Positions 37,671-41,152 of a stretch of DNA of 57,881 nt are shown here, in pieces. Position 1 is the first letter of the stretch, and each line of letters opens with the position of its first letter. The translations under genes were made by a program, and so were the position numbers. Below the pieces are notes generated by a model. That model ran no database searches. It had not been told where the DNA came from and worked only from the letters and a program-made list of their open reading frames with translations. The DNA comes from Gemmatimonadota bacterium (GTDB lineage: Bacteria > Gemmatimonadota > Gemmatimonadetes > Palauibacterales > KS3-K002): assembly GCA_020344375.1 (NCBI GenBank), contig CP070823.1, forward strand, positions 2,411,373-2,469,253. The letters are read 5' to 3'.

Positions 37671-38648
37671 CTACCCTCCGAGCATCTTCGCCAGCTGGCT
37701 GGCGTAGTAGGTGATGATCAGGTCCGCGCCGGCACGGCGGATCGAGAGCAGCGTCTCCCAGAGAACGCGCTGCTCATCGATCCAACCGCGCTCCGCCGCC
37801 GCTTTCAGCATGCTGTATTCGCCCGACACGTGGTAGGCCGCCACCGGATAGCCGGTCTCCCGCTTCACGCGGCTGATCACGTCGAGATAGGGGAGCGCCG
37901 GTTTCACCATAATGATGTCGGCACCCTCTTCGATGTCCACACGCGCCTCACGGAGCCCCTCGTCCGCGTTAGCCGGGTCCATCTGGTAGCCTCTTCGATC
38001 GCCGAACTTGGGCGCCGACTCCGCCGCCTCGCGGAACGGGCCATAGAATGCCGAGGCGTATTTCACCGCATATGACATGATCGGCATGTGAAGGTGGCCC
38101 GCCTCATCGAGCGCCCGGCGTATCGCTGCCACCCGGCCGTCCATCATGTCGCTCGGTGCCACCATGTCGGCGCCCGCCTCGGCGTGCGAGACAGCGCTGC
38201 GCGCCAGCAGCTCAAGGGTCACGTCGTTGTTGACCTCGCCCTCGGGCGTTAGGAGGCCGCAGTGCCCGTGATCGGTATACTCGCACAGGCAGACGTCGGT
38301 GATCACGACGAGATCAGCGACGCGCTCCTTGATAGCGCGAACCGCTCGTTGGACGATCCCGTCGGCGGCGTATGCCTCACTCCCGCGTGGGTCCTTCGAT
38401 TCCGGTATGCCGAACAAGAGGACCGCGGCAACCCCCAGAGACGCCAGCCCTGCCGCCTCCTCCGCCGCTGCCTCGACGCTCAGCTGTGCGACGCCCGGCA
38501 TCGCCGCCACCGGATGCCGGCCCTCCTGGTAGGTGACGAACAGGGGCGCGATGAGATCACTGGCCTCGATGGCCGTCTCCCGGACCATGGCCCTCAAACG
38601 CTCTGTCCGTCGCAGCCGCCGCCCTCGATAGACCGGGAACTTTGCCAT
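37671..38648 (-). CDS. hemB: Delta-aminolevulinic acid dehydratase (porphobilinogen synthase)
   Basis: HemB condenses two 5-aminolevulinates to porphobilinogen. The two active-site lysines are in [15 protein letters not shown] and [12 protein letters not shown]. The cysteine-rich metal site [15 protein letters not shown] marks the zinc-dependent type. [17 protein letters not shown] is also characteristic. 325 residues is full length. ATG 38648 overlaps the last base of the hemD stop, so hemD-hemB are translated together. The downstream sugar dehydrogenase follows only 5 nt after the stop. Confidence 0.97.
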
Positions 38649-39454
38649 CAGTCGCGTCCCTTCACGCTCTCGAAATACTCAGAGATCGCCTGCACAAGCC
38701 CATGCGCCGTGTACTGCCGGGCCTGGATGTCCACCCGCACGCCCAGAGCGCGCGCCGCCTCCGCCGTGATCGGGCCGATCACCGCGACCCGCGTCCTGCC
38801 CAACTCCGCTCCCGCCTCCTCGACGAAGTGACGCACCGTGGATGCCGCTGTGAACGTGACCACATCCAACTCACCCCGCTCGATGCTCGCGCGAAGCGCC
38901 GCGATCCCCTCCGCGTCCGGCTTGGACTCATAGGCGACGACCTCATCCACCTCCGCCCCTGCCGCACACAGCTGGGTTGTCAACACCTGGCGAGCACCAG
39001 CAGCACGGGGCAGCAGGACACGGCAGCCCGCCATGTCCGCTGCCGCCGTCAGGGCATCGGCCACCGCCTCCGCGACATACTCCTCGGGCATCACCTTCGG
39101 ATGGACCCCGTGCTCTCTCAGCGCTTCCGCGGTGGCCGGTCCGATCGCGGCCACATACTGGTTATCCGCGAGCACGGCCGCGCCCCGAACCGCGCGCAAC
39201 TCCTGGAAGAACCTGACAACACCGTTCGCGCTGGTGAACACGATCCAGTCATAGTTCTCCAGATTCTCCACCGCACGCCGCAGCGGCCTCCGGTCAGACG
39301 GATCCGCGATGCGGATCGTCGGGTAGCTCAGCGGCTCTGCGCCCAGCTCACGCAGACCGTCAATCAGAGCCTGTGCCTGCGCTGGAGGTCTCGTCACCGC
39401 TATCCGCAGACCCTTCAACGGCTGCCCCTCGCTGCTGAGGCCTGTTATCGACAC
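38648..39454 (-). CDS. hemD: Uroporphyrinogen-III synthase
   Basis: HemD closes hydroxymethylbilane with ring-D inversion to uroporphyrinogen III. The sequence matches the form often found fused behind [80 protein letters not shown] and [20 protein letters not shown]. The start is unclear. The frame opens at a TTG (39571), with a GTG at 39454 (chosen) and a TTG at 39418 behind GAGGGG. The ~39 extra residues between 39571 and 39454 do not resemble the family. Normal family length is ~250, so a start at 39454 or 39418 fits best. hemB follows directly; no hemC is in the window. Confidence 0.9.
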
Positions 39455-39571
39455 CTCCTCGACGCTCCCGCTAGCGCTGCCGTGCCCCACGACCTGAACG
39501 GTCCGGTTCGTTAGCCGCTGAATATGCGCTGCCGCGCCGGGCCCAGCAACCAGCGGGACCTGCAATGCCAA

Positions 39572-39762
39572 GCCGCTTCGTCAGATAGGCCACTGGGGCC
39601 AACGTGGCGTCGGCCGTCGAGCCGGACCACGCAGCGCTGCCGGCGCAGGCCGCAGCTTATTGCCGGGCCGGGGGGATCCCCGCATATTCCATCGTCACCG
39701 ATCAACACCACTGCGCTGGGTGGTGGACTGCGCTGCTGCGCTCAGGGAAAGGAGCCTGACCG
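39572..39762. other. Divergent intergenic region between hemD and the plus-strand gene
   Basis: This short stretch separates the only divergent gene pair in the window. On the plus strand a weak TTGCCG-17-CATATT pair lies ~90 nt before the plus-strand ATG. A G-run palindrome (GGGGATCCCC) lies within it. On the minus strand several frames are partly open and protein-like, but no family is recognised. Confidence 0.35.
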
Positions 39763-40164
39763 ATGGCTAGTTTTGTCAGCGCGAACCTCAACCATGAGAT
39801 CTCTGGCAACTTCGTTGTCTTCCAGCTGGATGCGAAGCTGCGCTTCGAGCCCAAAGAGGTGGGCCACCGCTGGCTGTTCCAGATCGAGTTCATGGAGCAG
39901 GACCCGGTCAAGGACGACAAGCTTTCCGCCATGCCCAAGGCGGAGGCCTTCGGCAAAGCGGATGCCCATATCAAGCGGCACTATTTTGTACCGTCGCAGG
40001 AGGAGATCGAACTCTCCTTCAAGGAGGAATTCGCCACGCACCTGGTCGACACTGAGTGGGGGAAGGAAGAGATCTACGCCAGCGTGCAGGCTCTTCCTCT
40101 CGAGGCGCCGCCAGGCTTCGTTGCGGCCAAGGCACGTACCAATGTCACGAAGGTAGACGTCTAG
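39763..40164 (+). CDS. Hypothetical protein, the only plus-strand gene
   Basis: I do not recognise this 133-residue protein. It starts at ATG 39763 behind GGAAAGGAG, 7 nt away. It is soluble-looking: no signal, no membrane helix, rich in Glu/Lys/Phe, with alternating hydrophobics (SGNFVVFQLDAKLRFEPKE, HRWLFQIEFMEQD) that suggest a beta-sandwich. The C-terminus is FVAAKARTNVTKVDV. Codon choice is GC-ending like its neighbours, so it is not clearly foreign. It diverges from hemD and converges with rpmB across a hairpin-rich gap. A 210-codon frame overlaps it on the same strand, but it is Arg/Ser-rich and looks like a shadow. Confidence 0.75.
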   Translation: MASFVSANLNHEISGNFVVFQLDAKLRFEPKEVGHRWLFQIEFMEQDPVKDDKLSAMPKAEAFGKADAHIKRHYFVPSQEEIELSFKEEFATHLVDTEWGKEEIYASVQALPLEAPPGFVAAKARTNVTKVDV

Positions 40165-40197
40165 CCGCGGTTCGTGCTCACCTTCCAGCAGGGGAGC

Positions 40198-40213
40198 GGG
40201 CGGTACCTCGCCC
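40198..40213. repeat. Small hairpin after the plus-strand gene
   Basis: GGGCG (40198-40202) pairs with CGCCC (40209-40213) over a 6-nt loop. It is the first of three inverted repeats packed between the plus-strand gene and rpmB. Confidence 0.35.
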
Positions 40214-40230
40214 AGCGCAGGGCAAAAGCC

Positions 40231-40250
40231 GCGGTCGCAAAGCCGACCGC
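40231..40250. repeat. 7-bp hairpin in the 40165-40382 gap
   Basis: GCGGTCG (40231-40237) and CGACCGC (40244-40250) form a perfect stem with a 6-nt loop. Neither strand shows a T-tract after it, so it is not a textbook terminator, but it sits between convergent genes. Confidence 0.45.
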
Positions 40251-40257
40251 CGCACAG

Positions 40258-40305
40258 AACGGCCGACGTGATTCGCGTGTGCAGCGCGCGACCAAGTCGG
40301 CCGTT
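40258..40305 (+). terminator. 10-bp inverted repeat, possible terminator between convergent genes
   Basis: AACGGCCGAC (40258-40267) has its exact reverse complement at 40296-40305, with a 28-nt internal loop that is itself GC-rich. On the plus strand the 3' arm continues into TTTCC, giving a short U-run. It could end the plus-strand transcript or the rpmB transcript, or be part of a structured RNA. Confidence 0.4.
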
Positions 40306-40382
40306 TCCGCTTGCTGTTAGCCTGATCTGTGGGGAGGAAACGTACAGACAACGAGAACGGCAAGTGAGCCAGGCACCTCACC

Positions 40383-40574
40383 TCACGGCGCCTTCTGGAT
40401 CCTCCCGGCCTTGATGCAGCTGCTGCACACGCGAACTCGCTTCACCGAACCGTTCTCGACGATCCTCACGCGCTGTAAGTTCGGCACCCAGCGTCGCTTA
40501 GTCCTGTTGTTCGCGTGGCTAACGTTGTTGCCCACCGCCGGGCGCTTGCCACACGAGTAGCACACTCGTGCCAT
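40383..40574 (-). CDS. rpmB: Large-subunit ribosomal protein bL28
   Basis: L28 is a small protein of the 50S subunit. The 63-residue protein (ATG 40574 behind GAGGAG) has [20 protein letters not shown], the family block [18 protein letters not shown] and [18 protein letters not shown]. Both CxxC pairs are kept, so this is the zinc-binding (C+) form. It is separated from rplQ by one unrecognised gene and usually pairs with rpmG, which is absent here. Confidence 0.96.
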
Positions 40575-40648
40575 CAAACTCTCCTCATCTCTGTCACCGA
40601 CGGGCGGCCAGTATGTTGCTACGATCTAAGACAGCGGTCCTGATTTTC

Positions 40649-41152
40649 CTAGCCGGGGAACAGGAAGTCGAGGGAGTCGACCAAGAAGAAGGTCGCTTGT
40701 CCCTCGAGTTTTTCCCGATTTGCTAGCTCGAAGAAGCCGCGCTGTGCATAGACAGCCAACAGCGAATCATTCAGCGCGTATACTTGGCCAGCAACCACCA
40801 GGTCGTCTCCACTCACGAATGTGATCTCCTGCTCAACCACCGTCCGTTCTAGAATCAGCGGATAGCCCGCTAAGCCCGGCAGATCCACTGTCAGTGCCGC
40901 TCGACCGATCTGTTCCGCCACGGTCACCGGCGACAGCAGGACGCGTTCGCGCGAGAACTGCGTGGGATCTTTCACAAACGTCGTGTCCGCGACTCGCGGC
41001 AGACCACCAGCAACCGTATCAGCAGGAGTCGCCCCAGGGCCGACCGTCGATGACGCCGCGTAGAGCCAGTACATGAAACCGGCAACCAGTACAACAGCCA
41101 CCGCCATCCACGGCCCGGTGCTGGTCGTTAACTTCCCGAGCACGTTCCTCAT
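40649..41152 (-). CDS. Hypothetical membrane-anchored protein after rplQ
   Basis: I do not recognise this 167-residue protein. One membrane helix lies near the N-terminus (residues ~14-33, PWMAVAVVLVAGFMYWLYAA) after a short Lys/Thr start, so the rest should lie outside the inner membrane. A Thr/Pro/Ala linker leads to a probable beta-rich domain (ALTVDLPGLAGYPLILERTV, EITFVSGDDLVVAGQVYALN). It starts 24 nt after the rplQ stop and ends 74 nt before rpmB, so it is probably transcribed with the ribosomal block. Position is the only clue to its function. Confidence 0.75.
   Translation of the reverse strand: MRNVLGKLTTSTGPWMAVAVVLVAGFMYWLYAASSTVGPGATPADTVAGGLPRVADTTFVKDPTQFSRERVLLSPVTVAEQIGRAALTVDLPGLAGYPLILERTVVEQEITFVSGDDLVVAGQVYALNDSLLAVYAQRGFFELANREKLEGQATFFLVDSLDFLFPG

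Follow-up and report, generated by a model that had tools for sequence, protein, structure and literature searches.

The window analysed here is a stretch of 57,881 nucleotides from a single-contig Gemmatimonadota genome (3.04 Mb, 87.6% complete) of the family KS3-K002. A codon-score caller trained on the minus-strand genes of the window picked 61 genes, 60 of which lie on the minus strand. The exception, already singled out in a sequence-only reading as the lone plus-strand gene of the block, is an open reading frame at 39763–40164 (+) that begins with an ATG at 39763, ends with a stop codon at 40164 and encodes an acidic protein of 133 amino acids. This orphan gene is supported by homologues, codon score and AlphaFold2 models, the last of which predict a single Ig-like beta-sandwich. 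The ORF list and locus comparison place it between two minus-strand neighbours: the divergent hemD (uroporphyrinogen-III synthase; longest ORF 38648–39571) and the convergent rpmB (ribosomal protein L28; 40383–40577). Both names are our presumption from the sequences rather than the outcome of a family search.

The orphan is a real gene under protein-level constraint. Its codon score of 0.44 per codon lies near that of rpoA (0.43; rpoA is in the training set) within a window maximum of 0.62, which bears out the host-like codon choice noticed at first reading. Relative to the copy in genome G158, nucleotide differences number 18, 9 and 56 at codon positions 1, 2 and 3, and dN/dS against the G299 copy is 0.12–0.15; this was the one carrier pair of 21 to yield a value, the rest probably being saturated. 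Because differences between carriers concentrate at the third position, and given the dN/dS value, we take 39763–40164 to be the coded frame rather than any of the overlapping ORFs. Open frames do overlap the gene on both strands, as a chance open frame with no gene behind it might have it, but we consider that explanation refuted by conservation in seven genomes, the third-position bias and a conserved start and Shine-Dalgarno sequence. Among the seven carrier proteins, 53 of 133 alignment columns are invariant.

The gene carries signals of its own. A Shine-Dalgarno sequence, AAAGGAG (39748–39754, +), stands 8 nt before the ATG, and GAAAGGAG is unvaried in all seven carriers, our own genome included, which confirms the Shine-Dalgarno of the first reading. 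Further upstream, comparison of the carriers revealed a promoter-like box, TTGCCG-N17-CATATT (39660–39688, +), ending 74 nt before the ATG. Six of the seven carriers have the form TTGCCS-N17-CATATT exactly, its spacer constant in length and its end 72–81 bases before the ATG; it was not found upstream of the orphan gene in G160. The intergenic stretch around it is otherwise poorly conserved. The same comparison showed a divergent box on the hemD side, TTGCTG-N17-CATATT (39521–39549, −), which is exact in five of the seven carriers, has one mismatch in G160 and was not found in G300. The longest hemD frame begins upstream of this box and contains it in its first part, so the true hemD start is probably internal and downstream of the box.

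Genome-wide, the looser pattern TTGC-N18..20-CATATT has eight matches in the source genome and none for the reversed control. A 17-base spacer is present in five of the eight, the orphan and hemD-side boxes among them, and six of the eight lie outside scoring ORFs (the match L073 lies inside one). Within the window, matches with at most two mismatches number 11 against 3.0 expected. We infer that the box would be a sigma-70-type promoter in general use in this organism, not the mark of a special regulon. The suggestion that the gene is independently regulated is thereby supported at the sequence level by a conserved promoter-like box, but a program promoter scan of the stretch, which is stricter, found no promoter.

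The hairpins reported behind the gene were recovered as two inverted repeats between the convergent ends of the orphan gene and rpmB. The larger, AACGGCCGACGTG/CAAGTCGGCCGTT, spans 40258–40305 (arms 40258–40270 and 40293–40305); the smaller spans 40228–40253, with 10-nt arms (40228–40237 and 40244–40253) that are 90% complementary. All seven carriers have inverted repeats of at least 8 bases at this place, in a count made without a chance control, and the best is a perfect 20-bp repeat in G158. The core AACGGCCGAC/GTCGGCCGTT is common to the source genome and G299, and ACGGCCGAC lies within the G158 arm. The larger repeat is a possible two-way terminator for the orphan gene and rpmB. A scan of the stretch for T-run terminators found none, and an Rfam search of window positions 39300–40700 gave no match.

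We found the orphan gene in 7 of 8 genomes of the family KS3-K002, the source genome included, with one strong match each; its presence in six of the seven other family genomes also answers the concern that the ORF might be absent from close relatives. Identity to the window copy is 86% in G299, 83% in G158, 74% in G166, 65% in both G300 and G298, and 64–67% in G160; one relative, at 74% identity, is the Gemmatimonadota genome CP070812. When 298 genomes of the phylum were searched with the single sequence, four had the gene (our own included), every one in the family; a profile run against 394 genomes of the class returned the seven family carriers at E 3e-67 or better and ten further weak matches (E 9.4e-4 to 0.78). 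The best two of these ten we inspected and, by eye, judged to be chance: the L013 match (E 9.4e-4) shares its frame with an ORF that looks like a UvrD-type helicase, and the L014 match runs antisense to an ORF that looks TM2-like. A small local search with the single orphan sequence matched L013 too, at 38% identity over 53 residues. No homologue outside the family was recognised in either search.

Beyond the phylum, restriction rests on one peptide-pattern scan of a species-genome collection and on searches of plasmids, phages and viral contigs. The scan, which detects close relatives only, gave three loci that are, by their positions, the copies of G299, G166 and G160; the other searches found no homologue, two Sinorhizobium matches from the plasmid search being noise (E 9, 28 residues). 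A literature search on the family found nothing, and we make no wider claim of absence from print. As far as searched, the gene appears restricted to one family of bacteria and to found an apparently new protein family.

In all seven carriers the orphan gene adjoins rpmB in the same place and convergent orientation, and in six of them hemD is divergent on its other side; this is the outcome of the synteny survey proposed at first reading. The sister family was searched with rpmB in 35 genomes, and 23 loci were examined. All 14 loci that hold both rpmB and hemD have them on the same strand with no orphan gene between, and the spacing between the two matches is 44–414 bases; the widest gaps (414 bases in L037 and 237 in L040) gave no orphan match. 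At the remaining 9 of 23 loci, three of whose stretches end at contig ends, neither hemD nor the orphan gene was seen. One of 15 loci from other families of the class (L054) likewise has rpmB followed by hemD without it. Since the plain rpmB-hemD order exists outside the family, and sister-family loci show hemD after rpmB with no orphan gene, the gene is most likely an addition, probably a lineage-specific insertion at this junction.

The one family genome without a match, G234 (83% complete), has an rpmB-hemD stretch too short to hold the gene. A small tree makes it the sister of the seven carriers (support 0.97), and the absence may reflect gain after the G234 split or loss in G234. At this locus (L035), rpmB is inverted relative to rplQ, unlike in the seven other family members, and an ORF that by eye resembles a CobA-HemD fusion follows rpmB and fills the space. 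The nearest relative, G299, shows a different irregularity (L002 840–2411 and L008): of hemB a piece of 22 codons is left and the locus has no hemD, although the hemD-side promoter-like box is still present. No match to hemB was found elsewhere in this 65% complete assembly, and either a deletion in the population or an assembly fault may account for the loss.

How well the gene is kept can be judged against its neighbours. In G158, G166, G300, G298 and G160, hemD is 67, 62, 65, 60 and 59% identical to the window copy; the orphan gene exceeds it in four of these five carriers and ties with it at 65% in G300. Between rplQ and rpmB lies a gene for a 167-residue protein (40649–41152, −) with an apparent N-terminal membrane helix, as judged by eye. 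The sister family, and some families besides, have a match to it at the corresponding place. The identities of this protein in G299, G158, G166, G300, G298 and G160 are 84, 74, 66, 60, 67 and 51%, below those of the orphan protein in five of six carriers. The corresponding values for rpmB are 92, 81, 84, 78, 81 and 78%, above the orphan protein in five of six. In most carriers, then, the orphan protein is today more conserved than HemD or the 167-residue neighbour, and less so than the adjoining ribosomal proteins.

The seven proteins have no Cys and a pI of 4.6–5.2. Their invariant columns include 13 acidic and 3 basic residues (two His and one Arg), with no Lys and no Cys. By eye we see neither a signal peptide nor a membrane helix, in agreement with the first reading. 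With the window's protein as query, the family libraries yielded nothing above noise (P2 domain at E 0.13, PHROG 2532 at E 0.29, nothing in NCBIfam), NCBIfam and PHROGs being searched with this protein only. Pfam searches with all seven members were likewise noise, one member matching DUF3906 at E 0.048 and one matching P2, and PADLOC matched none of the seven. The PDB sequence search gave the blue copper protein 6kol, which was not significant (E 1.3 and 0.13). No confident match to a known family was therefore found in the family-library and PDB sequence searches, and the earlier description of a real, separately placed gene whose family is not assigned by sequence is supported.

AlphaFold2, run on alignments of seven related sequences, gave a pLDDT of 81.5 for the seven-member alignment and 86.6 with the G300 member first, with nearly identical strands; the weakest of five first models had a pLDDT of 64. 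Each model has eight strand segments, the last two of which we read as one split edge strand, and corresponds to an Ig-like beta-sandwich of about seven strands in a two-sheet Greek key, the topology being taken from the structural matches. In the VIA comparison, the top matches were GH2 enzymes (Z 11.3, rmsd 3.0 over 108 aligned residues; Z 11.1, rmsd 3.0 over 109), and the matches that we recognise also include the free Ig-type adhesin repeats of Cpe0147 (Z 10.7–10.9, rmsd 2.0–2.2 over 108–110) and factor XIII (Z 10.6, rmsd 2.6 over 109). A Z below 8 may reflect only a common arrangement, and the top matches exceed this value. We take the matched regions to be the Ig-like domains of these proteins. 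The best Foldseek E values were 2.1e-4 (TM 0.60) and 5.0e-4 (TM 0.56), and the search of BFVD viral structures gave a single match below E 1e-3, with an rmsd of 11.8. Sequence identity is 3–14% in the structural matches listed. The orphan protein is thus predicted to be a single Ig-like beta-sandwich, which agrees with the initial guess of a beta-rich protein; "no recognised domain" stands for the sequence but not for the predicted fold.

Ig sandwiches are very common, and the fold by itself gives no function. The GH2 Ig-like domain resembles the models in fold (Z up to 11.3, at an rmsd of about 3.0 for 108 residues) but is part of chains of ~650–1,000 residues, with 3–14% identity among the matches listed, whereas the orphan protein is free-standing. 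ApaG/DUF525 proteins, represented in the Foldseek list by 1xq4 and 1tza (both presumably ApaG), resemble it as small free-standing all-beta proteins, but the TM score is 0.36–0.38 and there is no sequence match; PF04379 was not matched by any of the seven members at E ≤ 1, and none of the eight family genomes has a DUF525 gene.

Our preferred reading, which we hold tentatively and at slightly less than an even chance, is that of a family-restricted, soluble protein of one Ig domain, with a conserved acidic pole at which it binds a partner. The gene would have entered the rpmB-hemD junction during the evolution of the family, would have its own sigma-70-type promoter and would set hemD, which has a divergent box of its own, apart from the run of ribosomal genes. 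As there is no family match and no recognisable site, the protein is probably not an enzyme and would act by binding. Seven of the 13 invariant acidic residues (E45, D47, D51, D52, E98, E102 and E103) lie within or next to the CD and EF loops, and from strand order alone these loops should share one pole of the sandwich. For this reason docking at the acidic pole would be the likely mechanism, with a basic partner protein or a divalent metal bound there, much as intracellular inhibitors or adaptors of the Ig fold act. A larger claim seems unlikely to us: that the gene was born or captured in one family, inserted backwards with its own promoter and fixed. This would at once have given a new class of cytosolic Ig-fold binder, its acidic pole possibly binding metal, and freed transcription of the haem genes from the ribosomal operon. 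What is new is the restriction to one family as searched, the sister-family junction without the gene, the conserved box and the predicted Ig-like fold; the kind of protein is familiar. With its own signals and a sister-family junction that lacks it, this is a well-bounded taxonomically restricted gene whose binding partner would be worth knowing, and no general picture is changed.

The same seven acidic residues, at or near two loops that we expect to share a pole, would also suit an Ig-like domain that binds calcium or another divalent metal, working, we presume, as cadherin or Calx-beta domains do; with no metal-binding family matched by Pfam in any of the seven members, we regard this as improbable. 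Descent from a surface Ig repeat, an ester-bond adhesin domain now free-standing and cytosolic, is suggested by the Cpe0147 repeats of Clostridium perfringens, which are similar in size (138–142 residues) and have the lowest rmsd among the matches listed (2.0–2.2, Z 10.7–10.9). We think it highly improbable. In isopeptide-bond Ig domains a conserved Lys is joined to an Asn or Asp, and the seven sequences have no invariant Lys; nor is there a Pfam match. For the ester bond, PMC12679949 describes a cross-link set of T450, H572, D577 and Q580, with Thr (rarely Ser) near the start as nucleophile and Gln near the end, together with His, Asp and buried acids, and the set so described is not conserved in the seven-sequence alignment. 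Position 6, within the first 16 columns, is Ser in six members and Thr in one, and the last 24 columns have no invariant Gln, only a single Gln in G299 and in G160 at different positions.

A role like that of the Bacillus intracellular proteinase inhibitor IPI (BsuPI), which would block a subtilisin, is also very unlikely. IPI is, like the orphan protein as predicted, a small Ig-like variant and is reported in PMC3901451 to inhibit the subtilisin Isp1, and its structure 3isy appears in both Foldseek PDB lists (TM 0.40–0.48). However, the same paper questions whether IPI is an inhibitor and whether it is intracellular (PMC3901451), and none of the seven members had a Pfam match to BsuPI (PF12690) at E ≤ 1. 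The source genome has no subtilisin-family (PF00082, S8) match above the cut-off in a search that was positive in B. subtilis, although at 87.6% completeness this is not final. As a separate observation, a stretch of the same genome (L069, C1:1676389–1676823) matches PF00082 with 19.6 bits against a cut-off of 21.8 and has two internal stops; it is possibly a decayed subtilisin-family gene.
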